A DNA stretch of 32,844 bases from Thiospirochaeta perfilievii (GTDB taxonomy: Bacteria; Spirochaetota; Spirochaetia; DSM-2461), in assembly GCF_008329945.1 (NCBI RefSeq), contig NZ_CP035808.1, positions 1 to 32,844 on the forward strand. The letters run 5' to 3'. This document shows positions 4,784-24,777 of the stretch, one piece after another. Both the position numbers and the translations under genes were made by a program. The stretch's first letter is position 1, and each line of letters begins with the position of its first letter. Under the pieces are notes generated by a model. The model was given only the letters and a program-made list of their open reading frames with translations, had not been told where the DNA came from and did not search any database.

Positions 4784-6469
4784 CTAATATTTGTATTTTA
4801 TTAAAAGTTTTTTAATAATAGGTTTTAAGCTTACTAAATCGTTATTGTTCCCAGGCTTTAGTTTGAAAGCTCCTACTCCATATAGTAAATCATTATCAGA
4901 ATTTGCGTTTTCATAGAATAATTTATTAATATTCCCAGGATATAAAATAAAAGCACCTTTTGCTAATACTAAAGCGTCCCTATAAGTATGCATTTTATCT
5001 ATATCTGTGTTCTTATATTTTTCTATTTTTTTTTCTGTTAAATTTGTATTTTCTATAGATATGGATTGAATTTTAAATTTTGCATCAAAAATGTAAATGG
5101 CGGCTAATTCACTTCCATTGAAAATTTCTAATGATATATCTGGATCATATGACGTAGAATAACTTTCAACAGTATAATTCTTATTATAGTGAAGTCTTAT
5201 CCTTGGAAGTTGTTTGTTTTCTTTAAATTCAAAGTAGTTTGAATAGGTTTGTTTTTTTAATGTTTTAGAAAAATCAGATTTCAATATGCTATACTTTTTT
5301 TTATTTAATTTTTCTTCATAAATATCAGCTATTATTTGAGAAATAGCAAAGAAACAATAGTTTTCATACAAAACATCAAGAGATTTGTTTTCAATCATCT
5401 CTTCTATATTTGTAGAATCACTTAGTTGTTTAGGTAACGATTTTATACCTAAATAAAGATGAAATATATGTCTATAGCCATCTTTTCTTGTTAAGACTGT
5501 AGAATATGAAGGAATATTATTCATAACTCCGATATTTTTTAAAAAAGATCTCTGCAGTATATTTTTTAATTTACCTATATGCTCTTGATTTTCTTCAATT
5601 AATTCATAGTTACTAAAATTATCTTGATTGATAAAGAACTTTTGGAATTTTGTTATTAATTGCAGACACCATTCTATAAAGAATTTTATAAATCTATTTT
5701 CAGAGTTATCAAAAGTATCTATAGTTTCTTTTATAAGTAATTCTTTTGGAATATAATTATTTTCATTGATTTTAAACTTGAGATTCAAATTATTATTACA
5801 AGGAATAAGTCTTGTTGAACCTGAAAATATATCTACTAGAGATTCGTTTGATATTTCATTTACATTTTCTATGTTTTCATACTTTATTACGTTGGACATA
5901 AGGCGATTAGGATTATTTTCAATTAATTTAAAAATTGAAAATATATTATTTGATGAGTTTTTCGTGTTTAACGCATTATGAATAATTAGAAATGTATGAT
6001 AGTTTAAATCAGTTTTTTTTAACTTATTTCTCTCTATTTCAGAAAATGTAGATTGGTTAAAATCATATGACAAATTTATTATAAAAGAATTAACCGTGCT
6101 TATTAAGAAGTCCATTTCTTCTGAAGTAATTTTTTCAGACTCAATAAGCAATTTTATTTTTTTAAAAAAAGTTATACCTACACAGTTTTTAAAAAGTAAT
6201 GTTCCATAGTCTTTGGATCCAAATTCACCTTTTTTTATGAAGTCAGAAAATATAAAACTGTTATCTAATGATTTTACTTTATATTTATTCCATTCTTTTA
6301 AGATAATATTGTTATTTTCAAAATAAATATTCCCTTTTGATGTGTCACTGCATTCTAAGAAAGAAGAAGTACCATTAATAAAATCATCTAAAACGTGTTG
6401 TTCTAAATTTTCATTATAAATTATAACATTTTCTGTCTTTATAGCATTTATAGATAATCTTGTTTCCAC
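4784..6469 (-). CDS. McrC-like restriction nuclease subunit (LlaJI R2-like)
   Basis: 561 residues. The long N-terminal part resembles the DUF2357/McrC-type region. A PD-(D/E)XK nuclease core follows near residues 440-470: 'SYDPDISLEIFNGSEL' then 'IYIFDAKFKIQ', giving the D...E-x-K-type metal and catalytic residues. It starts 8 bp after the McrB-like gene ends, so the two are co-transcribed. In McrBC and LlaJI systems this subunit cuts DNA when driven by the AAA+ partner. The two methyltransferase genes transcribed away from it make an LlaJI-like system more likely than a modification-dependent McrBC. The gene looks intact. Confidence 0.8.
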   Translation of the reverse strand: METRLSINAIKTENVIIYNENLEQHVLDDFINGTSSFLECSDTSKGNIYFENNNIILKEWNKYKVKSLDNSFIFSDFIKKGEFGSKDYGTLLFKNCVGITFFKKIKLLIESEKITSEEMDFLISTVNSFIINLSYDFNQSTFSEIERNKLKKTDLNYHTFLIIHNALNTKNSSNNIFSIFKLIENNPNRLMSNVIKYENIENVNEISNESLVDIFSGSTRLIPCNNNLNLKFKINENNYIPKELLIKETIDTFDNSENRFIKFFIEWCLQLITKFQKFFINQDNFSNYELIEENQEHIGKLKNILQRSFLKNIGVMNNIPSYSTVLTRKDGYRHIFHLYLGIKSLPKQLSDSTNIEEMIENKSLDVLYENYCFFAISQIIADIYEEKLNKKKYSILKSDFSKTLKKQTYSNYFEFKENKQLPRIRLHYNKNYTVESYSTSYDPDISLEIFNGSELAAIYIFDAKFKIQSISIENTNLTEKKIEKYKNTDIDKMHTYRDALVLAKGAFILYPGNINKLFYENANSDNDLLYGVGAFKLKPGNNNDLVSLKPIIKKLLIKYKY

Positions 6470-6477
6470 TATATTTC

Positions 6478-8184
6478 CTATTTAATGAAAGTAGCAAATC
6501 CAACTTTGTCTAAATCTGATAACATTTCTAAGATTTTTAAAGCAGTTTTTGGATATTTAAAAATTTCTATTGCAATATTCGTTTCTATTTCCCAATTGTT
6601 AATTTCTGAATTTGAAGAATTATTTAAAGCCGCTATTATTTTATCCCCATCAGAGTTAGGGTCGAGATTGATTATTTTTTTCATACAGCAGGATAAAATT
6701 TCTACTAAAGGACCCCATATCTTGTCGTAAGTACCATAAAATTTGGGTAATATCTTTTGAAGGATTTGATAATCTAAGGCAATAACAGCTTTTTTTTCAT
6801 AACTTGTATTTTTACAAACATTACATATATATCCGGAGATTTCATTGATTACTCTGTATCCAAAATGCATATTGTATTTTTTTAATGCTATGAATACTTT
6901 AATAATATCATCAAAGCATTTATTTTCATCAGCTATAAGTTTGTTAACTTCTGTATTGCTAGGCATTGTTATTTTTAATTGAGGAATATAAGAATTGTTA
7001 TCAAAAAAGAAATTATCATCGATGATAGATTTATTATTAGTTTGGAGATATTCTTTGTTTTTATCTGATATATTGTAAAGTCCATTAAAGTCAATTTCAT
7101 TAAATTCAATAACATTACTTCTATCAAGAACTTTAGGACTGAACATGTATGTTGTTTCATCAACATTTACAGTACCTATTGTAAATATATTTAAAGGTAT
7201 TGGTAATTCTGGTGGAACAAAACAATGATTGTTTTCTTTTGTATATAGTTTGGTACACTCATATTTTCTATTTTTCTTATATGGGCAATTTTCTTCAGGG
7301 CAGATGGTGCCATTAGAACTTAAGCATTTTTCATTATTATGCAAAACCATATTGTCTTGAGTTATTATATTATTATTGGTAGCTTCAATATATATTTTTT
7401 CAAGATGTATAATAATTTCCAAGTCTTCTTCACTTATTTCAGATTTTAATTTTCGTTTATATAGACCTTTATATTCTCCATGTCCTCCACCTGTAAAGAC
7501 TCTATGTGCTAACCTTCCATCCCCTTGGTTTAGTTCACTTCTTACTTGAGGAGTCCATGATTTATCATCATTTTGCTGAGAAAATTGTTCCCTCCATAAA
7601 GTTACAAATCTATTTTCTCTATATTTTTTTACTTCCAAATATTCATCTGGACTATTTAAGTCTATAGATGCTAAAATAATTGCTTCAGATAAAGTTATTT
7701 TATCTTCATATCTAAAAATTTTTTTTAGATCGTATAAACTAGTACTACATTTCTGGTATTCTACTCGTCTACTTTCTATTAGACTCAAATAATCAGCAAA
7801 ATAATGTTCTGTTTTTGCAATATTCATTTCATCCAAGATTAAAAAATAAGGTATATGAGGAGCTTTTAGAGCTTTTAGAAAAAGTTCTATTAATGGAGTA
7901 ACATAATAGCTATTATCAATTAAATTGTGATAGCCAAATAATCCTTTACTATCTCTCCAATTTGGTTTTACAGGAATTAATTCATATTGTTTTTCATCGT
8001 CTGTTGAAATAATTTCTGAAAAAATTTCTGCTATTTTTGATTTTCCAGAACCAGATATTCCTGTTAAAATAACAAAGGGTTTTGTTATTAAGGAGTTGAA
8101 ATAATTAAATAATAAATCTTTATTGTAATGAAATCCTCTTTTATTAAATTCTGGAATAAGTTCATCAGATTTTTGAATGCCCAT
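6478..8184 (-). CDS. McrB-like AAA+ NTPase restriction subunit (LlaJI R1-like)
   Basis: 568 residues. Walker A 'GISGSGKS' is at residues 42-49 and Walker B 'LILDEMN' at 114-120. A sensor-like 'TIGTVNVDETTYMFSPKVLDRS' corresponds to the MNTADRS region of McrB and its arginine finger. Between Walker B and sensor there is a long insertion holding a cysteine cluster (CLSSNGTIC, then EENCPYKK, then KYECTK), a probable zinc site that is unusual for McrB. There is no N-terminal DNA-reading domain in front of the ATPase core, so target recognition may lie in the insert or C-terminus (inference). AAAGG precedes the ATG. It would form the translocating ring that activates the McrC-like nuclease. Confidence 0.82.
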   Translation of the reverse strand: MGIQKSDELIPEFNKRGFHYNKDLLFNYFNSLITKPFVILTGISGSGKSKIAEIFSEIISTDDEKQYELIPVKPNWRDSKGLFGYHNLIDNSYYVTPLIELFLKALKAPHIPYFLILDEMNIAKTEHYFADYLSLIESRRVEYQKCSTSLYDLKKIFRYEDKITLSEAIILASIDLNSPDEYLEVKKYRENRFVTLWREQFSQQNDDKSWTPQVRSELNQGDGRLAHRVFTGGGHGEYKGLYKRKLKSEISEEDLEIIIHLEKIYIEATNNNIITQDNMVLHNNEKCLSSNGTICPEENCPYKKNRKYECTKLYTKENNHCFVPPELPIPLNIFTIGTVNVDETTYMFSPKVLDRSNVIEFNEIDFNGLYNISDKNKEYLQTNNKSIIDDNFFFDNNSYIPQLKITMPSNTEVNKLIADENKCFDDIIKVFIALKKYNMHFGYRVINEISGYICNVCKNTSYEKKAVIALDYQILQKILPKFYGTYDKIWGPLVEILSCCMKKIINLDPNSDGDKIIAALNNSSNSEINNWEIETNIAIEIFKYPKTALKILEMLSDLDKVGFATFIK

Positions 8185-8272
8185 AAAATACCTTTCTGTT
8201 AAATATAACCATATACAATAAATTAATTAGTATCATATTATATAACTTCAAACAATCAATTAAGGATTTCTA

Positions 8273-8302
8273 TTGAAATAATATCTTTTTATATGCTATG
8301 CT
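8273..8302 (+). promoter_or_regulatory. Promoter candidate for the methyltransferase genes
   Basis: TTGAAA (8273-8278), 18 bp, TATGCT (8297-8302), then AAAGGAG and the ATG at 8336. It lies in the 151-bp divergent region between the restriction and modification genes. No equally good promoter was found for the restriction side, which would let modification lead expression (inference). Confidence 0.4.
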
Positions 8303-8335
8303 TCTGATTGACTTAAAGGAGTTGAATAACTTTCT

Positions 8336-9943
8336 ATGAACAGTAACAAAGAGCTATTTACGACAAAAGAAACAGCGCAAGTATTAGGAGTGTCTACATC
8401 AACTATACGAAGATGGAGTGATGATGGGATTTTACCGTGTTTTAGAATAGGTGTTTCTCAGTACAGAAAATATGAAAAATCAGTTGTTTTTTCATTAAAA
8501 GAAAAATTCTATGGGAAACAAGAAGTTAGCCCCGAAATAAAGAAAAAGATTGAACAAAAGGGGATGATAACTAAAAATATTATTGCAAAATCACATCCAG
8601 CACATTATTTAATGCATAAGTATTGGGGGAGGAAACCACACAATGTAGTGAATGAGTATATAGCCTGTTTTACAAATGAAGGAGATACTGTACTAGAACC
8701 TTTTATGGGTAGTGGTGTAACTGTAATAGAATCTTTAAAGCTGAATAGAAATGTTATTGGTCTTGATATCAATCCTATGTCTAAATTTATAGTTGAAAAC
8801 ACTATATGTAGTACAGATTTAGATTATTTTTCGAAATCGTATAATGAAATATTGCTAAAAGCAAAAAGTAAATATTCTGAATTATATGATACCAGGTGTC
8901 CCATTTGTTCAAATATTTCAACCATAGAGACTGCAGTATGGGAAGATGATAATCTCGTGAGAATAAAAGGAATTTGTCCTGTACATAATAAATTTGTAAA
9001 AGATGCAGGGCCTGAAGATTTTGTTAAATATGAAGAGTGTTCTAATTTGAAACAAAAGTTGTTGACTGAAGGTTTTTTAGAATACCCTACTGATGAAATA
9101 ATGAAATATGTAAAACGAAGTGGACGGAATAGAGTAGATGAATTGTTTTCTGATAGAGCATTAATTCTATTAGCATATATTAGAAAATTAATGTTAAGAG
9201 AAGAAAATAATGGAATTAAGAATTTATTACTTTTTTGTTTTACATCAATGCTATCAAATGTTTCAAGAATGTTACCAGGCGATAAAGACAAATCGACATA
9301 TAAATCAGGTTGGGTAATAAGTAAGTTTTGGACGCCAAAAATTCATACAGAAAGAAATGTTTTCATGTGTTTGGATTTAAGATATAAAGCTATTATTAAA
9401 GGAAAAATTGAGTTGCAAGATATTCCTACAGAATTGGCACAACTGTATACTTATGATTCATCAAATCTAGACTTTATAAAAGATAACAGTATAGATTATA
9501 TTTTTACTGATCCTCCATATGGAGAAAGTATAGCTTATTTATCTTTAAGTCATTTTTGGAATAGCTGGCTCCCTGATCAAGTAGAATATTCAAGAGAAAT
9601 AATTATTGATCCATATAGGCAAAAAGATTATCAAGACTATTCTAAAAGATCAAAAGCTGTATTTAAAGAGTTGTATCGTGTTTTAAAAGATGACCATTAT
9701 ATGTCTTTTACTTTTCATAATAGAGATTTGAACGTTTGGAAAGCTATTTTGGATGCTTGCTATGATGCAGGTTTTGTTTTAGAAAATGTTATACTTCAAG
9801 AGCAAGCAGTTAGCTCTGGTACTCAAGGAATTAATAGGAAGAACACTCTGACGGGTGACTTTATTTACAATTTCAAGAAGATGCAAGATAAAAAATTAAA
9901 ACAAATAATAATATTGATGAAAGTATTTTTATTGCTGATTTAA
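8336..9943 (+). CDS. DNA methyltransferase (DPPY type) with N-terminal HTH; 3' end frameshifted
   Basis: 535 residues as read. Residues 1-55 are an excisionase/MerR-type helix-turn-helix ('TTKETAQVLGVSTSTIRRWSDDG'). 'HYLMHKYWGRKPHN' and the SAM-binding motif 'EPFMGSGVT' follow at about 100-130. Then comes a central recognition-like region with a zinc-type cluster (CPIC and CPVH). The catalytic 'FTDPPYGESI' is near residue 395. The DPPY order (motif I, recognition region, motif IV) suggests adenine-N6 methylation of an asymmetric site. The last ~15 residues ('KQIIILMKVFLLLI') look like frame-shifted sequence. Adding one A to the A6 tract at 9890-9895 would extend the protein to a stop at 10167, overlapping the next gene. 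The fused HTH could also regulate its own promoter. Partner of the C5 methyltransferase and the restriction pair. Confidence 0.82.
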   Translation: MNSNKELFTTKETAQVLGVSTSTIRRWSDDGILPCFRIGVSQYRKYEKSVVFSLKEKFYGKQEVSPEIKKKIEQKGMITKNIIAKSHPAHYLMHKYWGRKPHNVVNEYIACFTNEGDTVLEPFMGSGVTVIESLKLNRNVIGLDINPMSKFIVENTICSTDLDYFSKSYNEILLKAKSKYSELYDTRCPICSNISTIETAVWEDDNLVRIKGICPVHNKFVKDAGPEDFVKYEECSNLKQKLLTEGFLEYPTDEIMKYVKRSGRNRVDELFSDRALILLAYIRKLMLREENNGIKNLLLFCFTSMLSNVSRMLPGDKDKSTYKSGWVISKFWTPKIHTERNVFMCLDLRYKAIIKGKIELQDIPTELAQLYTYDSSNLDFIKDNSIDYIFTDPPYGESIAYLSLSHFWNSWLPDQVEYSREIIIDPYRQKDYQDYSKRSKAVFKELYRVLKDDHYMSFTFHNRDLNVWKAILDACYDAGFVLENVILQEQAVSSGTQGINRKNTLTGDFIYNFKKMQDKKLKQIIILMKVFLLLI

Positions 9944-10167
9944 TTGATGAATATATTGAAAATAATAATGGAGTTACTCCTTCAGAGTTATATGAATATA
10001 TTATTCCTATAATAGTAAAGGCACATGTATATACAGACAAAAAAGGTGATGTAATTAATATAGAAAATATTTTAAAAAATTCTTATGACTATATAGAAGT
10101 TGATGTCGAAAATAAAGATAAGCATAAAGTTGGAGGGGCATATAAGTGGGTAAAGAAAAACAAATAA
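9898..10167 (+). pseudogene. Displaced 3' end of the DPPY methyltransferase (-1 frame)
   Basis: In the -1 frame after the A6 tract the sequence stays open and protein-like to TAA 10165-10167: 'NNNIDESIFIADLIDEYIE', then 'GVTPSELYEYIIPIIV', then 'GGAYKWVKKNK'. This adds about 90 residues, giving a methyltransferase of about 610. The extension overlaps the GTG start of the next gene by 22 nt, as expected for a normal operon junction. The zero-frame heptamer is not a good slippery site, so this is a deletion, a phase-variable tract or a base-call error. Confidence 0.65.
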
Positions 10168-11252
10168 ATGCGCTAGATTTATTTGCTGGAGCAGGAGGTT
10201 TTTCTCATGGAATGAGAGACGCTGGTTTTAATATAATTGCTGCGGTAGAATATAACCCTCAAATAGCAAAGACCTATATGCATAATCATCCTGAAACAAA
10301 AATGTTCGTGGATGATATAAGAAATATTACTACAGATGAAATAGAAAAAATATTCATGTCACAAAAAGTACAATGTGATATTATTTTCGGTGGACCTCCA
10401 TGCCAAGGATTTAGTATGGCTGGAAAACGTATTCGTGCGAAAAAATCTTTTTTAAAAGATGAGCGTAACTATTTGTTCAAAGAATATATAAGAATGGTAG
10501 AAAAACTACGACCCAAAATATTTATAATAGAGAATGTCCCTGGAATACTAAATTATAATAACGGAGAAGTAAAACAGGAGATCTTTGAAACTTTTAGAGA
10601 TTTAGGATATGTGTTGGATGCTCAATTACTTTGTGCTGCAGATTATGGAGTACCCCAATTAAGAAAACGTGCAATCTTTATCGGAAATCGTATAGGGATT
10701 AATCCTAAGATATTATTTCCAATGAAAACAAATAGTTTAAATAATTATGTTACTGTACGAGATGCCATAAGTGATTTACCACCTTTAGATTCAGGAACAG
10801 GGCAAGTGCAAACTAATTATATCAAAAACTTTATTCTAACAAGTTATCAACAACGAATGGTTTCTAAGTCTGGAATAGTTTTTAATCATCTTAGTTCTAA
10901 GCATAAACCTGAAACATTAAAATTATTATCAATGATAAAACAAGGTGAAACCATGAAGGATTTGCCTGAAAAACTTAGAACTAAATCCGTTCATAGTGGA
11001 GCTTATGGCCGGATGGTATACGATGAACCAGCATATACTTTAACAACGAGGCTAAATACCCCCTCAGTTGGAAGGATCACTCATCCTGTGCAGGATAGAA
11101 CTATAACACCACGAGAGGCTGCTAGAATACAATCTTTCCCAGATGATTATCTTTTTATAGGTGATATAACATCTATTGGAATGCAAATTGGAAATGCTGT
11201 ACCGCCTTTATTAGCAGAAAAAATAGGGCGAAATATATTAAATATTTTATGA
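10146..11252 (+). CDS. C5-cytosine DNA methyltransferase
   Basis: 368 residues from GTG 10146, preceded by GGAGGGG. Canonical m5C motifs occur in order: I 'DLFAGAGGFSHG' (about 11-22), IV 'GGPPCQGFS' with the catalytic Cys (about 81-90), VI 'IENVPG' and VIII 'LRKRAIFIG'. The variable recognition region follows at about 190-280, then IX 'TPREAARIQSFPD' and X 'IGNAVPPLLA'. Complete, no lesions. With the DPPY enzyme it probably protects the two strands of one non-palindromic site, as the two methyltransferases do in LlaJI. The GTG and its Shine-Dalgarno overlap the restored 3' end of the upstream methyltransferase, which indicates translational coupling. Confidence 0.95.
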   Translation: MGKEKQINALDLFAGAGGFSHGMRDAGFNIIAAVEYNPQIAKTYMHNHPETKMFVDDIRNITTDEIEKIFMSQKVQCDIIFGGPPCQGFSMAGKRIRAKKSFLKDERNYLFKEYIRMVEKLRPKIFIIENVPGILNYNNGEVKQEIFETFRDLGYVLDAQLLCAADYGVPQLRKRAIFIGNRIGINPKILFPMKTNSLNNYVTVRDAISDLPPLDSGTGQVQTNYIKNFILTSYQQRMVSKSGIVFNHLSSKHKPETLKLLSMIKQGETMKDLPEKLRTKSVHSGAYGRMVYDEPAYTLTTRLNTPSVGRITHPVQDRTITPREAARIQSFPDDYLFIGDITSIGMQIGNAVPPLLAEKIGRNILNIL

Positions 11253-11413: not shown

Positions 11414-12412
11414 CTACCTGCTATTATTATCTTCCAACAACTTATAGAATTCATTTAATTTCTTCTGCAGAACTCTTTTAGGTATTAGTTTTGTTTCATA
11501 TTCAGCTATAACAGCAGGACTCATAGACCTACTAAGAGCATACTTTACAACTTCATCGTTCTTTTCCCGACACAGTAATATACCTATACTTGGATTTTCA
11601 TCATTTCTTTTTACATCCCTATCAAGAGCTTCTAAATAGAACTCTAGTTGGCCAAGATCTGCTGGCTTGAACTTAGTTGTTTTAAGTTCAAATGCAACTA
11701 GGCATTTTAAATGTCTATGAAAAAATAGAAGATCAATAAAGAAATCATCAGTTCCAACCTGGACCTTGTATTCTTGGCCAATAAAAGAAAATCCGGAACC
11801 TAGTTCTAGTATAAAATCTTTCAGTGAAGAAATAAGAGCAGCAGAAAGATCTTTTTCCTTATATGGAATAGGCAAATCAAGAAATTCCAATACATAACTA
11901 TCCTTGAAAATACCATCTGTATTTTGAGGTAAGTTTTTTATAACATCAGAGACTTTATTATCAGCAAGCATGGTTCTTTCAAAAGTAGAACTGTCTATAA
12001 GTCTATTTAACTCTCTTACTGAATAATTTTGTTTAGAGCAAACAGTTAAATAAAATGCTCTTTCCTCTTCTGTTTTAAGAGTCATTATTCTTGTATTATG
12101 ACTCCAGGTTAATTCTGCCGACAGTGTCGACAGTTTTGTATTATTACTATAAGTTTCGTAGAATTGTTTCATTCTCCATATGTTACGAGAGCTGAAACCC
12201 TTAATTGTTGGGTTTGATTCTTTAATGAAATGAGAAAGATCATCAACAACAGATTTCCCCCATAAAGCATTGCTAACCTTTTCAGATACATACTTCCCCA
12301 CAGAATAATATAAGCTGTTAAGCTGATTGTTAAGCTGCTTATATGCACTAGATTTTGCTTTATGTATTAGTGATAATATATAGTTAAAGTCTTCTTCGAT
12401 TAAATCTGGCAA
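11414..12412 (-). CDS. yhcG: YhcG-type PD-(D/E)XK nuclease (DUF1016)
   Basis: 332 residues from a TTG start at 12412. The N-terminal DUF1016 region is typical: 'LNSLYYSVGKYVSEKV', 'GFSSRNIWRMKQFYETY' and 'LTWSHNTRIM'. The C-terminal nuclease carries 'FFIDLLFFHRHLKCLVAFELKTTKF', with the Asp and Glu-x-Lys of the PD-(D/E)XK core, and ends 'SPAVIAEYETKLIPKRVLQKKL'. Full length for the family. It is the third gene of the partition operon, 9 bp after the ParB-like gene. YhcG homologues are common near restriction loci and on plasmids. Placement with parA hints at a plasmid maintenance or exclusion role (inference). Confidence 0.88.
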   Translation of the reverse strand: MPDLIEEDFNYILSLIHKAKSSAYKQLNNQLNSLYYSVGKYVSEKVSNALWGKSVVDDLSHFIKESNPTIKGFSSRNIWRMKQFYETYSNNTKLSTLSAELTWSHNTRIMTLKTEEERAFYLTVCSKQNYSVRELNRLIDSSTFERTMLADNKVSDVIKNLPQNTDGIFKDSYVLEFLDLPIPYKEKDLSAALISSLKDFILELGSGFSFIGQEYKVQVGTDDFFIDLLFFHRHLKCLVAFELKTTKFKPADLGQLEFYLEALDRDVKRNDENPSIGILLCREKNDEVVKYALSRSMSPAVIAEYETKLIPKRVLQKKLNEFYKLLEDNNSR

Positions 12413-13300: not shown

Positions 13301-14218
13301 TTAAGCACCTTCATATATCGATTTGTCTATTGCATCAAATACTGCTAGTATTTTCTCAATAGCATTGTTAGAACTTGTATATTGGTTAAAGAGGTTATCT
13401 GTTAGAGGCCTCTCTTTTATTCCTACAAAGTTTGGAATAGAACCTTCTACTAGATAATCCTTTAGTTCATCCTTAGCCATTGTTATATACTCTTCCTGTA
13501 TTCTTATTGATCTTTGCTCATGTGCATTTATAAGAACCTTTAAAGACTTAAAGTATTCAGAATATTTCTTTACCTGATTAACAGTTCCAATAGCATCTTT
13601 AACACCATCATAATTGAAAGGCTCTGGAACGAACGGAATGATTACATGATTAGCAGAAAGCAAACCGAACTTAGAAAGACTATTTACATCAGGGCAACAA
13701 TCTAATATAACAACATTATATTTCTTGAAAGTTGAATAAAAGCTTTTAACGAACTTATCTAGGTCATCAATATCATAGTCTCTCTTCTTTGTCATAAGCT
13801 TTAGAGAAGATGGAATCACATCAATATAGTCATTATATTTAAGAACCAGCTTATTAACTGGTGTATTATCCTCAAAGAAATTATATAAACTCTTAGATTC
13901 AGCAAGTGTTTGGTAATCAAAGAATGTTTTTGAAGTATTCATTTGAGGGTCTAAATCAACAACTAGTGTTGTATAACCCTTCTTCTCATAATAATCAGCA
14001 AGGGTAATTGATGTACTAGTTTTACCTGGACCACCTTTCTGATTAAACACACAAAGAACACTTGGAACTTGTAACATTATCTCTCTTTTATCTAGCAAGT
14101 AGGTGTTAGAAGACTCTTCTATTTGAGCATTAACTCGACCTTCTGAAATATATTTTCTAATTGTTGTTTCTGCTAAACCTGTATATGCAGAAGCATCTTT
14201 AACATTAACTAACCCCAT
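13301..14218 (-). CDS. parA: ParA-family partition ATPase with N-terminal HTH
   Basis: 305 residues. Residues 1-50 are a MerR/excisionase-like helix-turn-helix ('VKDASAYTGLAETTIRKYISEG'), suited to autoregulation as in type Ia ParA. The deviant Walker A 'FNQKGGPGKTS' follows at about 60, then 'LVVDLDPQMNTS' (A') and 'YNVVILDCCPDVNSLS' (B). AAAAGGAG stands 6 nt before the ATG. The promoter at 14242-14271 and the dyad at 14277-14312 lie just upstream. First gene of a three-gene operon with the ParB-like and YhcG genes. Complete and convincing; it identifies the replicon as a low-copy plasmid. Confidence 0.95.
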   Translation of the reverse strand: MGLVNVKDASAYTGLAETTIRKYISEGRVNAQIEESSNTYLLDKREIMLQVPSVLCVFNQKGGPGKTSTSITLADYYEKKGYTTLVVDLDPQMNTSKTFFDYQTLAESKSLYNFFEDNTPVNKLVLKYNDYIDVIPSSLKLMTKKRDYDIDDLDKFVKSFYSTFKKYNVVILDCCPDVNSLSKFGLLSANHVIIPFVPEPFNYDGVKDAIGTVNQVKKYSEYFKSLKVLINAHEQRSIRIQEEYITMAKDELKDYLVEGSIPNFVGIKERPLTDNLFNQYTSSNNAIEKILAVFDAIDKSIYEGA

Positions 14219-17522: not shown

Positions 17523-18380
17523 ATGGATAATAAAATTACAGTTGAATATATTCATAATCTATTAAAATTGTGGGATCTTAGATTTTATTCTGAGTTACGG
17601 ATGAGAGATAGATCTCCTTTTATAATTAATGATGATGTTAGAAATAATATTATTTCTGAGAATACTGAATTCAAAGAGATAATTAAGCCTATATATACTA
17701 GTAGAGATATAAATAAATACTATTTCTACTGGCATGGAACTAGGGTTATTGATATTAATTTAAATCCAAAGCTTTATAGTAAGTTAGAAGAGTATATACC
17801 GATTTTGAGTAAAAGTGCTAATGAAGAGTATATAAAGCAGACTTACCAGAGACCTAAGAAAGATAAGATTATTTTTTCTATAGTTGGGAACAAGGTTGTT
17901 GCTTATCTTGATAAGAATAATTTTTATTCTACAGTTGGTACCAATTTTATTTATGGGAAATTTCTTAGTTATTTGGTTGCAGTATTAAATTCTAGGTTTT
18001 TATTGGATATTTCTTCTATCCCATTAATAACAGAAGAAGAGGAAGAACCTTTTAATGAATTATTAGAATACCTCGTATATGCCATTAAGTTTAAAGTTTT
18101 AGATATTACTGAAAAAGTCCATGTAGCATCATATTTTGAGAGCGTTATGGAACTTTTAGTTGCAGGTATATTATATACTAAAGAACTAAAGGCTGATAAA
18201 TGTTATATAAATAGTGATATACTTGCAGTATTACCACCATTAAGTGCTTTTGATGAAGAGGATAAAGAGAAACAAGTTAAGCTTGTTTATAAAAGTTTAT
18301 CTATTGATCCTATAATTGAGTCAGCAAGAATGAGATATAAACTTATAAAAGAGATAAACCCAAGTGGAGTTAGTAAATGA
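17523..18380 (+). CDS. Free-standing TaqI_C-like target-recognition domain protein
   Basis: 285 residues. 'FKEIIKPIYTSRDINKYYFYWHG' (about 50-75) is the 'ikp.l.grDi.rY' opening of the TaqI/Eco57I-type C-terminal specificity domain. 'KIIFSIVGNKVVAYLDKNNFY' and 'LSYLVAVLNSRFLLDI' match its 'kii...i..r...a..d...yy' and 'LLalLNS' signatures. No methyltransferase motifs are present; normally this domain sits behind one. The C-terminal 120 residues are helical and acidic at 'TEEEEEPFNE'. Its ATGA junction overlaps the next gene by 4 bp, so the ATPase is translationally coupled. Proposed role: DNA recognition for that ATPase (inference). The domain match is from pattern only. Confidence 0.6.
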   Translation: MDNKITVEYIHNLLKLWDLRFYSELRMRDRSPFIINDDVRNNIISENTEFKEIIKPIYTSRDINKYYFYWHGTRVIDINLNPKLYSKLEEYIPILSKSANEEYIKQTYQRPKKDKIIFSIVGNKVVAYLDKNNFYSTVGTNFIYGKFLSYLVAVLNSRFLLDISSIPLITEEEEEPFNELLEYLVYAIKFKVLDITEKVHVASYFESVMELLVAGILYTKELKADKCYINSDILAVLPPLSAFDEEDKEKQVKLVYKSLSIDPIIESARMRYKLIKEINPSGVSK

Positions 18381-20119
18381 GATATTATGTAGTTAGAGCT
18401 TTATGGGGAGATACTGATAAGAGTGAAGATTTTGTTAAAGAAGGTATTTGGGAGAATGGATATGGTGAAGAAAAATATTCTTTAACTGTTAGTAGTATTA
18501 CCCCAGGAGATATTCTCATTTTAGCAAGACCAGGTAGAGAGATATTTAACGTAGGTATTTGTACTAGAAATGAGAATGATTTTAAAAAAGTTATAGTTAA
18601 TTGGTTCGAAGGATTTGTTGCTGTTGATGCTGGAAAAGCCATTAGTCCATATATGAGAACTATTAATAAACTAGGTTCTGATGATTTTTGGACTGGAATT
18701 AAAAGTAAACTATATAGTGTAAACCCTGACTTAGAACAGTTTTTACAGAATTTAGATGATATTGATCAAATAGAAAATACCAGGATTAATAATATTTCAC
18801 TTGGTTGGTTTAAGTTCTTTGGTGAAAAAACTACTTTTAATTTGTCTGGAAAAAATATGCTTCTTTATGGAGAGAATGGAAGTGGGAAGACATCTTTTTC
18901 AGATGCAATTAGATTCATTGCAAATACAAGTATAGAACCTAATACTTCGGTAGAATATTATAAAAATATATTTGCAGGTGATACAGATGAGTTTCATGTT
19001 GGTATTGAGTTAAGTAACAATGACGAGTTTATTGTAGATAGTGTTGAATCTATACAACCCCATACCGTTTTACAACATTTAGCATTTATTAATCCATTTA
19101 TAACATATAAAGATATAATACAAATATACTTTAGAGAGATAGAACAAGAGGGGACAAGAAATCTTTACCATTTCTTTAAAGTTATACTAGATGATTATCC
19201 AGTTGGAACAGATTCTAGAATAACTCGTTTAGCAGATTTATCAGGTATAGAATATTTTAATAAATTAACTGAGTTAGTTTTAGGGTTAAAAGAACTTGCA
19301 AATCAATTTTTAGAAGAGTTTAAAGAAGATATCTTTATAGAAGATTTTAAAGCTGATTCTTTTGATAAGAAAATAACTTTAGAATTAACATTTAAAGATA
19401 AGGATGTTCCTGAGTATCAGACCTTTTTAAATGAAGCAAAACTAACAGCATTAGGTTTAAGTGTTTTTTTTGCAGCAATAGTTCAGAAATATAGTGTATA
19501 TGATACGGAGTGCAAGATATTGGTGCTTGATGACCTTTTGGTTAGTCTTGATATGGGGCATAGAATGGCTGTACTTGATATTGTAACCAAGAATCATTTT
19601 GAACATTATCAGAAGATTATTTTAACCCATGAGAGGGGATTTTTTAACTTATTTAAGAGTCAACTTAACTCAAAAGAGTGGGCTTTTTATGAGATGTATG
19701 AGAAAGCTAATGACGAAAAGGGATGTTCATTTCCATATGTATTGCCATCATTAGATTTTCTAACTAAGGCTAAAATTGCACTAGATGAAAAAGATTTCGA
19801 TTGTTGTGCTAATTTATTACGAAAAGAAACAGAGAAGATATGTACTGATTACTTAGTGAATATTAACAAGAAAAATGGACAACCAATGTCTTTAGAAGAA
19901 TTACTAGGTAATTTGAAGAGATGCTTAAAAAATGATAATACAATAAGTTCTGATCTCAAGAGAGATATTACAAAAATTGTAGATGAAATATTGTTATTTA
20001 AGCGTTTCATTTTGAATCCGTTCTCCCATGCAAACTCTAATTCTCCTTTGTATAAAAAAGAACTGACTGAAGCTATGGAAATTATTACTGGTTTTAAAAC
20101 TGCTATAGAGAATGTATAG
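18377..20119 (+). CDS. RecF/AAA_15-type ATPase with PUA/EVE-like N-terminal domain
   Basis: 580 residues. Residues 1-115 resemble PUA/EVE-type modified-base readers ('YYVVRALWGDTDKSEDFVKEG', 'ITPGDILILARPG', 'KVIVNWF'). The ABC-type ATPase follows: Walker A 'YGENGSGKTSF' (164-174), a signature-like 'LTALGLSVFFAAI', Walker B and D-loop 'ILVLDDLLVSLD' (about 381-392) and the switch His in 'ILTHERGFF' (about 416). Only about 200 residues separate Walker A and B, so there is no long SMC coiled coil. The C-terminal 130 residues are helical with 'LNPFSHANS', a HEPN-like flavour. Tightly coupled to the TaqI_C-like gene before and the primase-like gene after. Likely a defence ATPase (inference); nuclease residues were not identified. 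Confidence 0.7.
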   Translation: MRYYVVRALWGDTDKSEDFVKEGIWENGYGEEKYSLTVSSITPGDILILARPGREIFNVGICTRNENDFKKVIVNWFEGFVAVDAGKAISPYMRTINKLGSDDFWTGIKSKLYSVNPDLEQFLQNLDDIDQIENTRINNISLGWFKFFGEKTTFNLSGKNMLLYGENGSGKTSFSDAIRFIANTSIEPNTSVEYYKNIFAGDTDEFHVGIELSNNDEFIVDSVESIQPHTVLQHLAFINPFITYKDIIQIYFREIEQEGTRNLYHFFKVILDDYPVGTDSRITRLADLSGIEYFNKLTELVLGLKELANQFLEEFKEDIFIEDFKADSFDKKITLELTFKDKDVPEYQTFLNEAKLTALGLSVFFAAIVQKYSVYDTECKILVLDDLLVSLDMGHRMAVLDIVTKNHFEHYQKIILTHERGFFNLFKSQLNSKEWAFYEMYEKANDEKGCSFPYVLPSLDFLTKAKIALDEKDFDCCANLLRKETEKICTDYLVNINKKNGQPMSLEELLGNLKRCLKNDNTISSDLKRDITKIVDEILLFKRFILNPFSHANSNSPLYKKELTEAMEIITGFKTAIENV

Positions 20120-21153
20120 TGATAAATGAACTTGATTTAAGCAAATATCAAATTCCTTGGTTTGTAGGTGTAAAGCAGAGTCAAATTGTAAATCATAGTA
20201 CTATTTTTAATATATTAGATGGAATTAAGACATCATATATTACCGAGACTAATAAACTTAGATCTTTTAAGCCTGATAGTATTGAAAAAGCAGACTATAA
20301 AAAGACTTTGAATGGAGTTGTTTTCTCTGCTAACTTCTATAATTATAGACGAAAAGATCAGTTAAAAAACTATTACTCTTTAATTGTATTAGATATAGAT
20401 AAGCTAGACAAAAGATTACATGAAAAACATCTTAATCAGTTAAAAAGTGATAAATATGTTCAAAGTGCATGGACTTCTCCGTCTGGTGATGGAATAAAAG
20501 GCATAGTCTTTTTGAACTATCAATATGTTTACGATGATGTTGTTGAAGCACATAAAAATGCATATAACCAATTAAGATCTTATTTTTGGAATAGATATAA
20601 CATTATTTTAGATGAAAATTGTAACGATATTACAAGACTTTGTTTTGTATCACATGATCCCAATATACATATTAAAGATACATTTAGTTTATATAGAATT
20701 TTTAAAGAAGAGTCGATTTCAAATCCATCTGATAAAAAAAATGTTAGCAAAGCTACTAAACCTTTTAGATACTTTGAATATAAAGATATGGTTATATCTC
20801 AAAACTCTGAATTAGAAGAATTAAAAAGAGAAAAATATAAATATAATCGTAGAAGTATGCAAAGAATCTATAAGTATTTAGTTAAGAGATCTAGAAGTAT
20901 AACAGCAACTTATCATAGATGGGTTTTTGTTGCACTTGCTTTATCTACTACTTTCCCCTATTTAACTGCAAGAAAATACTTCATTAAACTATGCAGACTT
21001 GATGGTCATAAACATGATGAGGTTGCTAGTTTTAAACTCTTTGATGATTGTTATAAAAAGAATAAGGGTGAATACAACTATAGTTCTATTGTTTACTATG
21101 CAAAAGAACAAGGTTACTATGGAAGCGAGAAGAAGCAAAGTACTGAAGATTAG
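20119..21153 (+). CDS. BT4734/VirE_N-type primase-like protein
   Basis: 344 residues from GTG 20119, whose G is the last base of the previous TAG. Residues 60-200 match the BT4734/BF3469 (VirE N-terminal) domain: 'NGVVFSANFYNYRRKDQLKNY', 'LIVLDIDKLD' with its acidic pair, 'AWTSPSGDGIKGIVF' and 'DITRLCFVSHDP'. This domain is linked to archaeo-eukaryotic-primase-like replication proteins. Here it lacks the helicase part often fused to it. The C-terminal 110 residues are basic and helical ('YLVKRSRSITATYHRW'). It is followed by a reverse transcriptase gene, so it may belong to a DNA-synthesising defence or retroelement unit, or supply plasmid replication. The latter is notable because no other Rep is evident. 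Confidence 0.75.
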   Translation: MINELDLSKYQIPWFVGVKQSQIVNHSTIFNILDGIKTSYITETNKLRSFKPDSIEKADYKKTLNGVVFSANFYNYRRKDQLKNYYSLIVLDIDKLDKRLHEKHLNQLKSDKYVQSAWTSPSGDGIKGIVFLNYQYVYDDVVEAHKNAYNQLRSYFWNRYNIILDENCNDITRLCFVSHDPNIHIKDTFSLYRIFKEESISNPSDKKNVSKATKPFRYFEYKDMVISQNSELEELKREKYKYNRRSMQRIYKYLVKRSRSITATYHRWVFVALALSTTFPYLTARKYFIKLCRLDGHKHDEVASFKLFDDCYKKNKGEYNYSSIVYYAKEQGYYGSEKKQSTED

Positions 21154-21286
21154 ACCTAGTAATAGACTGATAATTTTCGATGAAAAACACTCATCTGGAA
21201 AGCAAAACGTTGGGAACAAAACAAAATCAGTAATCGAACTGTACAGGTACAAAAGCTTCTTCTCTTTTATTTATGAAAAGATTTGA
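21119..21286 (+). CDS. Possible 55-aa basic protein between primase-like and RT genes
   Basis: ATG 21119 is preceded by AAGG and overlaps the primase-like gene's end by 35 bp. The frame 'MEARRSKVLKIRPSNRL', then 'IELYRYKSFFSFIYEKI', ends in a TGA that overlaps the RT start at 21273. It has a basic first half and an aromatic tail. The overlaps on both sides fit the operon, but length and composition alone do not prove it is translated. Confidence 0.3.
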   Translation: MEARRSKVLKIRPSNRLIIFDEKHSSGKQNVGNKTKSVIELYRYKSFFSFIYEKI

Positions 21287-23032
21287 AAGTTATTTTAAAA
21301 CTAGCATTATAGAGAATTATCTCATTTCTGAAAGGATTAAGCGTGCACATAAAAGAAGTGAGCTACATTCTATTACTAATTTGTGCAACCATGGAGATAC
21401 TAAGAAGAAAATTGATAACTCTATAAAATATGATCAAGAGATTTCACAGTTCTTTCCACCTAGAAGAAAATGGTTAAGACCATCTCCTAGATTACGCTGT
21501 AGAAATAGCAAAAAGTGTCTAGAAAAGAAATGTGATAGTGTATGTTCAAAAAGAGAAAACTATAATAGTAAGGACATAGCAAAAATATCTTTAGTTCTAA
21601 CTATGAATAAACTACGACAATCAGATAAAAAGAATAAATATATAATTTTGATTGATGAATACTGTAATAAAATAAGAAAATTAGCTTTAAATAAGGATTA
21701 TTGCTTTAAAACTCCAGATATAAAAGCTATACCAAAGGATTTAGACAAAGGATATTACCGACCAATTGCAATGTACTCTTTGACTGATAAAATAATAATA
21801 AGCTTAACTAATAGGTATCTTACAAATCTCTTTGATTCTCTTTTTTTAATAATTCATTTGCTTTTAGAGTTAATTCAGAGACACAAATAAAAAACCATCA
21901 TGAAGCATTTAGACAGATTATTAATTTTAACAAACAAAAACAGAATGAAACTTTGTGGGTCTCTGAGTGTGATATGTAAAAGTTCTATGATACCATCAAT
22001 CATAAAACTATAACTTGGTGCTTTAGAATTTTAAAAAAACTTATATTGCGTGATGGAGATAAGGAACAATATTATTCACTAAATGGTGAACGTCTTTTTT
22101 ACTCGTTTTTACAATCTTATTCCTTTAATAAAACAGTAATGGCATGTAATTGCAATAAAGATTATTGGAAGAATGTAAGCGGAACAGCTACTAAAAAGCA
22201 GTTTAAATGGATTGATGACGAGACTATTAAAAAGCAATATAAATATGGAATTGATAACGAAAAAATTGGTGTACCTCAAGGAGGAGCTCTATCTGGTTTA
22301 ATTGCGAATATTGTATTACATTTTGCAGACTATAATGTTCTTAATAGTAGAGATCCAGATTTATTATATGTAAGATTTTGTGATGATATAATTTTAATTC
22401 ATCCTGATAATAAAAAATGCAAGGAATATTATCAGGTTTATGTGGAATCATTATTTAAATTAAATTTATTTGAGCATATTCCTGATGAATCAATACTTTC
22501 ATATAAAAAAAGTTTTTGGAGTACAAAAACAAAGATTTGCTATAAATGGGCTAATAGCTCTTTCCCGTGGATAGGTTTTGTCGGTTACGAGATAAATAGA
22601 TTTGGAGATATCAGAGTAAGAAAAGGTTCACTTCTGAAAGAAATCGAGAAACAACAAGAATGGGTGAAAACTATTCATAAAGCTTTAGAGAATGGCAATA
22701 ATCATAAAAGTAAATTAGAAATATTAAGTTCAGTTAGGGGGAAGCTTATTGGTATGGCTGTAGGTAGACCTATGATATATAATTATGATTTCTGTGAGCC
22801 TGATATGTGTTGGGTAACAGGTTTCAAAATGTTAAATAATAATAAATATGTTCGAATGCAGTTAAGGCAATTAGATCGATCTAGAAATATAGAATTATAT
22901 AAAATGAAACAAATCCTTAAAGGTATGGATAATCTTGATTCTAAAAATAAGGATGATGTTTATTCTAGATATATTGAAGAGCATTTTGGTAAACCTTATA
23001 GTTATTATTATCACGCATTAAAAGATAAATAA
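21273..23032 (+). pseudogene. Reverse transcriptase gene, disrupted by a frameshift and a stop
   Basis: Reads from ATG 21273 in one frame to the T7 tract at 21841-21847, then must shift (one T short) to continue 'NNSFAFRVNSETQ' and so on. An in-frame TAA at 21977 interrupts block A ('WVSECDM', stop, 'KFYDTINHKTITW'). The frame then stays open to 23032. RT landmarks: 'YYRPIAMYSLTDKI', 'VPQGGALSGLIANIVL', the catalytic 'YVRFCDDIIL' (FCDD instead of the usual YADD) and a thumb-like 'FVGYEINRFGDIRVRK'. The N-terminus has a cysteine cluster (about residues 75-92: CRNSKKCLEKKCDSVC). No maturase or HNH domain, so probably not a group II intron protein. Class unassigned; full length would be about 586 residues. 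Confidence 0.8.
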
Positions 23033-23050
23033 AACGAAGCTTTAAACATT

Positions 23051-23170
23051 CGGTTAGGGATATGGAAGATTGCAACGCAACACACACTATAGTGATGGAA
23101 ATGGTAACCTGAATTCCCCAGATGGGAGTGTGGATATTAATTAAAACTGCTTCCGATAATTAGCAAACCG
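23051..23170 (+). ncRNA. Compact structured RNA just after the RT gene
   Basis: Nested long-range pairs CGGTT (23051-23055)/AACCG (23166-23170) and GGAAG (23064-23068)/CTTCC (23150-23154) close a junction. It holds TTGC-AAC-GCAA (23070-23080), the palindrome CACTATAGTG (23085-23094) and CCC-AGAT-GGG (23117-23126). It starts 18 bp after the RT stop, on the same strand. RT systems often carry their template RNA beside the gene. It does not show a group II domain V. Confidence 0.5.
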
Positions 23171-23217
23171 TCTAGTATTTTTATTTACATGGGGTGCATT
23201 GGAGTGTATAAATAAAT

Positions 23218-23430
23218 ATGAGAAAAAAGAAAGATACACATGATTTTAAAGTAAGGGGTATCCCACAAAAGGATTGGGATCTTTTTATGCAGCACTGCCG
23301 GGAAGAAAGCCTAAACAGAGGAATGACTATTAGTGCTAATAAAAGAATAATAGAGATGATAAAAGTTGTTGCCAGTACTGTTAAGCCAGATAGTCTTTGG
23401 GAAAAAGAAAATCAGAAGACACTCTTTTAA
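23218..23430 (+). CDS. Small ribbon-helix-helix-like protein (70 aa)
   Basis: ATG 23218 lies 14 bp after TTGGAGTG. 'HDFKVRGIPQKDWDLFMQHCREE' reads as the beta-strand and first helix of an Arc/MetJ-type fold, followed by 'GMTISANKRIIEMIKVV' as the second helix. Basic N-terminus. A typical small plasmid DNA-binding protein, convergent with another small RHH-like gene and separated from it by a terminator. Confidence 0.6.
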   Translation: MRKKKDTHDFKVRGIPQKDWDLFMQHCREESLNRGMTISANKRIIEMIKVVASTVKPDSLWEKENQKTLF

Positions 23431-23454
23431 TAAGGTTTAAGATTAAAAAAATAA

Positions 23455-23473
23455 TAGGGTGAAAAACACCCTA
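23455..23473. terminator. Terminator between convergent small genes
   Basis: TAGGGTG, loop AAAAA, CACCCTA. Read on the minus strand it is followed by TTATTTTTTT, a good intrinsic terminator for the 23479-23694 gene. It probably also stops the plus-strand gene. Confidence 0.75.
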
Positions 23474-23478
23474 CTAAA

Positions 23479-23694
23479 TTACTTTTGATTTACTGGACAA
23501 CTAGTACAATCGGAACCCCTACCTTCGCATGCGATACAAATAGATTCAGGTGACACCTGTTCAAATGCCTGCTTAATAATGATATCCAATGTTTTAGTCA
23601 TTGGCTTACCATGTAACCATGATAACCTTTTAATGATTTGATACGAATTGAATGAGATTTGTGGATTATAAACTTTTGATTTACTACTGAGCAT
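23479..23694 (-). CDS. RHH-like protein with C-terminal zinc knuckle (71 aa)
   Basis: The middle 'ISFNSYQIIKRLSWLHGKPMT' and 'TLDIIIKQAFE' fit a ribbon-helix-helix. The C-terminus 'CIACEGRGSDCTSCPVNQK' holds a C-x2-C-x6-C-x2-C cluster that probably binds zinc. AAAGGGGGG stands next to the start. An inverted repeat (23722-23735) upstream could be its operator. The pairing of an RHH with a four-Cys tail is uncommon. No further function visible. Confidence 0.6.
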   Translation of the reverse strand: MLSSKSKVYNPQISFNSYQIIKRLSWLHGKPMTKTLDIIIKQAFEQVSPESICIACEGRGSDCTSCPVNQK

Positions 23695-23856: not shown

Positions 23857-24777
23857 TTAACCCCCACACGTTGAGCATGGTTTACCTTCTTCTTTATCAG
23901 TAAAATAACCAGACTTGGTATTATTGTAATATTTACAACTACTGTTATGACGTGTCATAGAGTTGCTGTTAATCCAATATGTTTCCGAAATATTAGAAGT
24001 TTGTTCTTGATCAATATATGTCTTAGGGAAAGAAGTAATATTGAAAGACCATAAATCTAAATTAACATTAGCCTCTATCATATTTTCAATTGAGTCTTCT
24101 AAAGAGGGATATAGGTCAAAACCTAAAAGTTGTTCAAGTTCATCAATAGAGTAAATATATGTTTGTAGAGCATATTTATTCTTACCTTCTATATTTGGGA
24201 GGACAAAACCAATAACTTGCCACTGATTGTTTTTAAATAGAAGAATAGCCTTATAATAGTAATCAGGGATAGATACCTTATTTGGACCTATAGAAGGAAA
24301 ATCATTTCTATTTAATATAGGACCTGTAACAATATAAGCTGCTCCATATACATAAACCCAGGAACGAACTAGTTCTTCTAAATTTTTCCAACGACCTCTG
24401 TTTAGAGAAGGAAGTTGAGGAGACATATTACTCATATAAAATGAGTCTGACATGGAATCTTTATTAAGTTTCATATCAGCAGCAGGAGCAAGATGACCTC
24501 TATCGTAACCTGAACCTTTATAATCAGATAAAGAAGCGGATCCTGTTTTAACCAATGGATCTTCCCGAAAGTTGTCCGTTCTATCGATATCATTGATTAT
24601 TTCTGATTTTAAAAGTTCATAAGCAACCCAGTCAGCCTGTTCATGCTGTTCATTATATTGAAGGGTATAATTATCTCTAGTAATTACCGCAGTAGATTTA
24701 GTTATCTCAGGGATTTCCAGCTGAGCAAATAGATTGAAGAATATAAATAGAATAAGAACTAGTATTATTTTTCTCAA
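23857..24777 (-). CDS. Secreted DNA/RNA non-specific endonuclease (NucA/EndoG family)
   Basis: 306 residues from TTG 24777. Residues 1-19 form a signal peptide (K-rich then 'IILVLILFIFFNLFA'). The His-Me nuclease motif 'DRGHLAPAAD' is at 92-101 with the catalytic His, 'FYMSNMSPQLPSLNRGRW' gives the metal-binding Asn, and 'YIVTGPILNRNDF' is also present. The extra C-terminal segment 'HNSSCKYYNN' and 'GKPCSTCGG' is a small Cys/His metal-binding-like tail not usual in NucA. The start overlaps the stop of the small XRE gene (TTGA), so the two are coupled. Probably acts in the periplasm or outside the cell, degrading foreign nucleic acid or scavenging nucleotides. Confidence 0.9.
   Translation of the reverse strand: MRKIILVLILFIFFNLFAQLEIPEITKSTAVITRDNYTLQYNEQHEQADWVAYELLKSEIINDIDRTDNFREDPLVKTGSASLSDYKGSGYDRGHLAPAADMKLNKDSMSDSFYMSNMSPQLPSLNRGRWKNLEELVRSWVYVYGAAYIVTGPILNRNDFPSIGPNKVSIPDYYYKAILLFKNNQWQVIGFVLPNIEGKNKYALQTYIYSIDELEQLLGFDLYPSLEDSIENMIEANVNLDLWSFNITSFPKTYIDQEQTSNISETYWINSNSMTRHNSSCKYYNNTKSGYFTDKEEGKPCSTCGG

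Follow-up and report, generated by a model that had tools for sequence, protein, structure and literature searches.

A primase-polymerase gene, a structured non-coding RNA and the gene for a UG39-family reverse transcriptase (RT) follow one another on the (+) strand of a 32,844-nucleotide contig of Thiospirochaeta perfilievii (NZ_CP035808.1, assembly GCF_008329945.1), the whole of which was analysed and is referred to here as the window. A sequence-only reading had proposed that a primase-like protein, an RT and a folded RNA located after the RT form a DNA-synthesising immune or retroelement module. We find that primase, RT and RNA together are probably a DNA-synthesising immune module, but that the supported RNA lies upstream of the RT gene. 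At even chances, we take the window to hold a decayed copy of a module resembling the Class 2 defence-associated reverse transcriptases (DRTs), in which the RT would copy a structured RNA of 120–230 nt and the primase would start or complete the second strand.

A covarying RNA precedes the RT gene in related loci

Relatives of the module comprise 80 loci from a scan of 84,980 species genomes that was steered by conserved RT motifs. The alignments used to steer it (A1–A3) included made-up rows around motifs picked by hand and by a profile-masking test; they served only to pick search patterns, and matches were confirmed with the real window protein. The relatives are mostly from Bacteroidota, with further loci in Spirochaetota, Ignavibacteriota, Pseudomonadota, Acidobacteriota, Planctomycetota, Verrucomicrobiota and other phyla. 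The RT is mostly intact among ∼75 of them, and the genomes looked at hold one full copy of the module each. Among 296 genomes of the phylum and 26 of the order that were scanned, the window genome alone carries this RT. No close relative was found in plasmid and phage records; first viral scans with single-protein queries gave no match, and other viral scans only distant RTs.

Between the primase and RT genes, the relatives exhibit a stretch with a long closing stem, only a few bases separating its 3′ arm from the RT start. With RT starts set by N-terminal alignment, the best closing stem with its end immediately ahead of the RT start was compared at 76 loci with those of 50 dinucleotide shuffles; it surpasses 50/50 shuffles at 44 loci and reaches p ≤ 0.04 at 55. 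At the control positions, stems surpassed all shuffles in 0/46 cases ahead of the primase, in 1/72 downstream of the RT stop and in 1/74 within the upstream gene. The sequences of the stem diverge widely among clades, as illustrated by the arm pairs GGGGTTCC/GGAACCCC, TAAGGCGTAGG/CCTACGCCTTA and GAGGGTAGCG/CGCTGCCCTC. In an alignment of 18 sequences, a four-helix structure is paired in 91.4% of cells, with 12 pairs changed on both sides and 0/500 shuffles as good, whereas slid controls are paired in 43–59% of cells. Extension to 27 sequences, nine of which were added by model, gives two-sided change in 23/27 pairs, helices 3–5 included, although this alignment was fitted to the structure and is hence biased toward it. 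A covariance model built on the 18 sequences (R1) finds RNAs that it had not seen just upstream of the RT at L022 (6e-7), L032 (3e-6) and L011 (6e-5) and also detects that of L041 clearly, further unseen loci being marginal. The 5′ arm of the RNA begins within the end of the primase gene in 36/39 same-strand relatives, as it does in the window, and the RNA is retained with the RT where the primase is divergent. Towards its 3′ end, the RNA has a CAGTA motif at 38/76 loci, as compared with 2/74 and 3/77 in control windows; this motif is a candidate template or RT-binding element.

The RNA of the window

In the window, the RNA spans 21127–21264 (+), bounded by the closing stem P1, and lies within the 119-nt gap between the primase gene and the RT plus the final 27 nt of the former. 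The stretch has a folding z-score of −3.41, with 0/200 shuffles as stable, and the closing-stem test yields p = 8/500. The 5′ arm of P1 (GAGAAGAAGC, 21127–21136) is a perfect complement over 10 bp of the 3′ arm (GCTTCTTCTC, 21255–21264), which ends 8 nt before the RT start. Within P1, the 5′ arm of an inner stem P1b (GTACTG, 21140–21145) pairs with 21244–21250 (CAGGTAC), an element also present in the Treponema relative L010, and the CAGTA motif is found at 21228–21232, in the 3′ half. Model R1 ranks this RNA first within 20500–23600 (3.1 kb), with 10.8 bits. The assignment rests on position and fold; the z-score supports the case without carrying it, since the RNAs of some relatives (L034, L015) are unremarkable in fold energy, while that of L010 reaches −5.06.

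The RT belongs to UG39 and is related to Class 2 DRTs

The window RT matches the PADLOC model RT_UG39 in two frames, over 21282–21848 and 21836–23026, that meet at ∼21836–21848. The N-terminal part in the first frame (21273–21848, +) matches with 8e-36 and 118.5 bits, this frame stopping at 21888–21890, and the C-terminal part in the other frame (21836–23032, +) matches with 9.7e-103 and 425.7 bits and includes one stop. This is an in-frame TAA at 21977–21979, immediately behind the residue that follows the first catalytic Asp, so the damage noticed in the sequence-only reading is confirmed. The FCDD motif of the window RT is intact, and the catalytic residues are invariant across aligned relatives. 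The RT genes of two further loci are interrupted at sites other than those of the window (L008, ∼10363; L065, ∼7146). Programmed frameshifting or stop read-through was considered and is unsupported, as intact relatives have a single frame and other broken copies break elsewhere.

UG39 is by far the best family for the window RT (9.7e-103 versus 5.7e-15 for the next defence RT family among PADLOC profiles), and RT_UG39 is the best PADLOC match in 6/6 loci spread across the set of relatives. In the profile rankings of the window and relatives, the next-best defence RT families include Drt2, Drt9 and UG17/DRT10, whereas retron RT models score far lower (e.g. 2.6e-9 versus 1e-125 at L084). Compared by sequence with solved structures, the UG39 RT is nearest to group II RTs, Drt2, DRT9 and Drt3a. 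Its structural model has DRT9 as best solved structure in Foldseek (9vma, 5.3e-15), and VIA-align places RTs of diversity-generating retroelements, DRT9 and group II RTs level. Overall, the UG39 RT is closest to DRT9, DRT2 and UG17/DRT10, which are Class 2 defence RTs. Features of Class 2 DRTs include relation to Drt2, Drt9 and UG17 and a structured RNA encoded in cis. UG39 exhibits both, the RNA of the window copy being identified by position, z-score and stem, and weakly by model.

A primase-polymerase accompanies the RT

The gene upstream of the RNA (20119–21153, +) is apparently intact and, as had been suggested, encodes a BT4734-type primase-like protein; it matches PADLOC RTasVirE-PriCT2 with 3.9e-82 and Pfam BT4734-like_N with 1.7e-25 and has a PriCT2-like C-terminus that gives a weak PriCT_2 match. 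The residues that are invariant in the family, D92, D94, S120, P121, S122, G125, K127, D165, D170, R173 and D180, are all present in the window protein, and the catalytic residues are invariant across aligned relatives. An AlphaFold2 model (predicted local distance difference test score 87.7) has archaeo-eukaryotic primase folds among its structural matches. The resemblance to archaeo-eukaryotic primases and PrimPols is weak in Foldseek (best E 0.011), and in VIA it amounts to Z 9.2 to a viral PrimPol, with a high root mean square deviation, and Z 6–7 to PriS and Prim-PolC. Against the CRISPR-associated PrimPol model NF040562 the protein scores 63.9 bits, under the curated cut-off of 200.

The sequence-only reading had asked whether primase-like gene, RT and RNA always travel together, and this largely held. 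Among the 72 loci with enough upstream sequence, the primase adjoins the RT in 60, on the same strand in 46 and on the opposite strand, facing away, in 14. A closing stem of RNA size precedes the RT in most of the loci of the stem test. Mapped on the RT tree, the state of the primase (same strand, divergent or none) changes three times, versus 24 in shuffles, although the tree was built quickly and its primase-less rows have long branches. Thus, the primase is kept beside the RT through inversion, and a chance neighbour is unlikely. RT and primase are not one protein, as they are in DRT7 or RT-PrimPol fusions, but separate genes, and no SLATT match was obtained among the scanned neighbours.

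The primase-less loci are L076, L078, L082, L084, L085, L068, L070, L072, L073, L081, L083 and L087, many of which keep the pre-RT stem. A protein with tetratricopeptide repeat (TPR) and TOTE-type S1/CSD domains recurs near the RT at L078, L084 and L085 (families identified in L084), where at L084 it stands directly in front of the RNA; it is possibly a second type of partner for UG39 RTs.

Genes in front of the module and on the window contig

The window is an entire contig, the second of a 3.70-Mb genome, beside a first contig of 3,667,739 bases, and for this reason it is probably a plasmid. The operon proposed for 17523–23170 is real in that four (+) genes follow in order, for a recognition-domain-like protein, an ATPase, the primase-polymerase and the UG39 RT, and overlap by 4 bp at 18377–18380 (genes 1/2) and by 1 bp at 20119 (genes 2/3); the proposed chain of overlaps does not extend to the RT, which the gap described above sets apart from the primase gene. 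The two front genes appear optional. The ATPase (580 amino acids, 18377–20119, +) is of AAA_13/RecF-like type (Pfam AAA_13, 1.6e-10), and the ∼130 residues ahead of its P-loop region match no Pfam family. The recognition domain assigned to the first protein (285 amino acids, 17523–18380, +) is less secure: it has no Pfam match, and its sole, weak, resemblance is to the C-terminal specificity region of type IIG restriction enzyme-methyltransferases (PADLOC, 4e-10).

The expectation of a constant ATPase pair failed among the relatives. No homologue of the recognition-domain-like gene was found in the 80 loci, and homologues of the ATPase occur in three relatives only (L049, L050 and L054), where they immediately precede the primase and follow a GmrSD_N gene, so that the gene preceding the ATPase is of another family than in the window. 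These three loci (at about 4900–11000) have a tight row of GmrSD-type gene, ATPase, primase, RNA and RT. AbiEi and AbiEii stand in front of the primase in 6/6 Pedobacter/Sphingobacterium loci (L011, L012, L013, L015, L019 and L065), the families having been identified in L011 and the other five loci assigned by clustering, and a HEPN gene takes this place at other loci. Front genes thus look like exchangeable partners or merely neighbouring defence genes.

Elsewhere on the window are a McrBC-like pair at 4784–8184, composed of an AAA_5-type protein and a DUF2357/PDDEXK_7 nuclease, a DNA methylase with an N-terminal helix-turn-helix (8336–9943), a cytosine-5 methyltransferase (10146–11252), a DUF1016/YhcG-type PDDEXK nuclease (11414–12412) close to a ParA-like gene (13301–14218) and, on the minus strand, a DNA/RNA non-specific endonuclease (23857–24777). 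A 187-residue protein at 16850–17413 matches PADLOC PD-T4-7 over C-terminal positions 139–278 only and, from this partial match, is possibly a remnant of another defence gene.

Comparison with known systems

PADLOC pairs RT_UG39 with RTasVirE-PriCT2, the same RT family and the same primase family side by side. The myRT class UG28b probably corresponds to this group, and UG28b RTs co-occur with VirE_N at 45–46% (PMC8934634). The pairing of RT and primase is already known, as both the PADLOC name and the latter study attest. The PADLOC description holds no RNA, whereas here a covarying RNA lies between the two genes and overlaps the primase end, and the pairing survives inversion. Within the papers that could be searched, we found neither a description of the UG39-family RNA nor a study of UG39, and on that basis the RNA appears to be undescribed.

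DRT9 (UG28) offers the best structural match and likewise has a structured RNA upstream of its RT gene, as a Class 2 system, but it consists of RT and RNA only and produces poly-dA from a U-rich template (PMC12483538), whereas no U-rich template is obvious in the RNAs of UG39, which are joined by a primase gene. DRT10 (UG17) is also a three-part module of RNA, RT and partner protein, with an RNA similar in size (137 nt) and general shape (PMC12632851); its partner is a SLATT protein, its RNA is encoded ahead of that partner, and an A-B-A′ pattern like that of DRT10 was not detected around the CAGTA motif of UG39 RNAs. In DRT3 (Drt3a, Drt3b and RNA), two polymerases share one RNA, and the product is double-stranded DNA, its complementary strand coming from the second polymerase (PMC13174585), but this second polymerase is another RT, whereas the UG39 module has a primase-polymerase of a different superfamily. 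Finally, an RT is joined with a primase-polymerase in DRT7 (UG10) and in CRISPR RT-CAPP fusions (PMC13213688, PMC10415136), as a single fused protein or in a CRISPR setting, unlike the separate genes with an RNA between them observed here, where the RT is moreover of the UG39 family.

Proposed working and alternative explanations

In the Class 2 systems studied so far, the RT binds an RNA encoded in cis, and a short template directs its synthesis of repeat cDNA (PMC12632851, PMC12483538, PMC13174585). We infer that the UG39 RNA would be released from the primase-RT message by cleavage, or transcribed together with it, and then bound by the RT, which on a phage-linked signal would copy a short single-stranded part of it into cDNA. 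The adjacent archaeo-eukaryotic-type primase-polymerase would start or complete the complementary strand, and the toxic or decoy product would be double-stranded DNA. The front genes, recognition domain and ATPase in the window and GmrSD with ATPase, the AbiE pair or HEPN elsewhere, would be exchangeable partners or separate defences. The fullest form of this proposal is advanced only tentatively: two polymerases would act together in immunity, the RT copying the cis RNA and a dedicated primase-polymerase of archaeo-eukaryotic type adding the second strand. A defined double-stranded DNA would be made from RNA instructions, and an unrelated enzyme would do the job that Drt3b has in DRT3.

Several observations weigh against the reading of the window as a Class 2-like module of these three parts. 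Its RT, lying in two frames with an in-frame TAA, is broken twice, by a frameshift and a stop codon, and cannot be made as one protein; this copy of the module is probably dead. By the covariance models, the window RNA is a weak member of the family, with E 0.049 in the 3.1 kb searched with R1 and, under a wider model (R2), third rank in the whole window with E 1.4, which is not above background. UG39 RTs without such a primase exist at 12 loci in two clades, so the primase is dispensable. Lastly, a DRT10-type A-B-A′ repeat around CAGTA shows no excess over shuffles (mean p 0.54) and points to no template. Repeats of this kind that are striking by eye (TGTCA-GTATCTT-TGTCA in group 1; AATTTG-GTCGTATTG-AATTTG in L010) were likewise set aside, as they are not above shuffles across the loci tested.

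The association of an apparently intact primase with RNA and RT admits other roles for the primase. It may supply a primer, a short starter made on or at the end of the structured RNA that the RT extends, so that one strand only is synthesized. The retained catalytic residues and the tie to RNA and RT at most loci agree with this, as does the de novo priming on RNA and DNA by CRISPR-associated RT-PrimPol fusions; in the fused enzyme, however, priming belongs to the RT domain and not to the primase domain (PMC10415136), protein priming has been reported for the nearest relatives, DRT9 and DRT10 (PMC12483538, PMC12632851), and 12 UG39 loci have no such primase. This role seems unlikely. The primase, or the front genes, could instead be a toxin restrained by the RT-RNA complex or its cDNA, as in retrons or toxin-antitoxin pairs, and freed by phage to poison replication. 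A constant RNA-RT core beside variable front genes, several of which are of toxin or restriction type (AbiEi/AbiEii, GmrSD, HEPN), is in keeping with this arrangement, as are the same-strand genes found within 60 nt of the primase in 14/61 cases. Yet the retron models fall far below UG39, the front genes change between loci and in most of them are missing or far off, as expected of defence islands, and the divergent orientation of the primase at 14 loci is unlike a tight toxin-antitoxin operon; we judge this explanation unlikely. Quite improbable, and a little more so than the attenuator discussed below, is a mobile or replicating retroelement in which RT and primase copy the RNA and insert or replicate the element with no role in defence. 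Mobile elements commonly carry archaeo-eukaryotic primases, a class that includes the BT4734-like family (PMC5862659), the plasmid-sized window contig has transposase-like genes, and the module crosses phyla; on the other hand, nothing is conserved 3′ of the RT stop among relatives, most loci have no recurrent recombinase near the module, a single full copy is present per genome examined, and the RT falls among defence RT families.

Other explanations concern the RNA. The primase-RT gap could simply tune RT expression, as an attenuator of transcription or a hairpin for processing, and not be used by the RT, and in many loci a terminator-like T-rich run does follow the closing stem just before the RT start. 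An attenuator would not account for covariation of the internal stems, for conservation of CAGTA in the interior or for the persistence of the RNA beside the RT at loci with a divergent primase, and the RT-binding RNAs of DRT9 and DRT10 are likewise upstream, with a large stem-loop and smaller ones (PMC12632851, PMC12483538); there is thus little probability in this explanation. The remaining candidate, the stretch after the RT that had been taken for the folded partner RNA (∼23050–23170; scored as 23041–23180, +), can be given almost no weight. Its ends pair by eye, but its z-score is +0.60 (143/200 shuffles as stable) and that of the other strand +0.17, it has no Rfam match, and it is unconserved, with no counterpart 3′ of the RT in relatives, where the stem test succeeds at 1/72 loci. 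Furthermore, 49 nt of the window (23035–23083) recur at 82% in a chromosomal intergenic stretch (C1:222462–222510), with a weaker 25-nt match at C1:245827.

Implications

Class 2 DRTs are the bacterial RTs reported to be nearest to telomerase (PMC12632851); they copy a built-in RNA, and each one solved so far has yielded a new kind of DNA product. For the UG39 branch, which spans several phyla, the RNA provides experimenters with the missing part, in the form of boundaries, a structure and intact systems for cloning. Because the RNA extends into the primase gene, it would be lost from constructs that retain only the RT gene and from those with a recoded primase. The standing primase partner, in turn, allows a direct test of second-strand synthesis versus primer supply in RNA-templated immunity.

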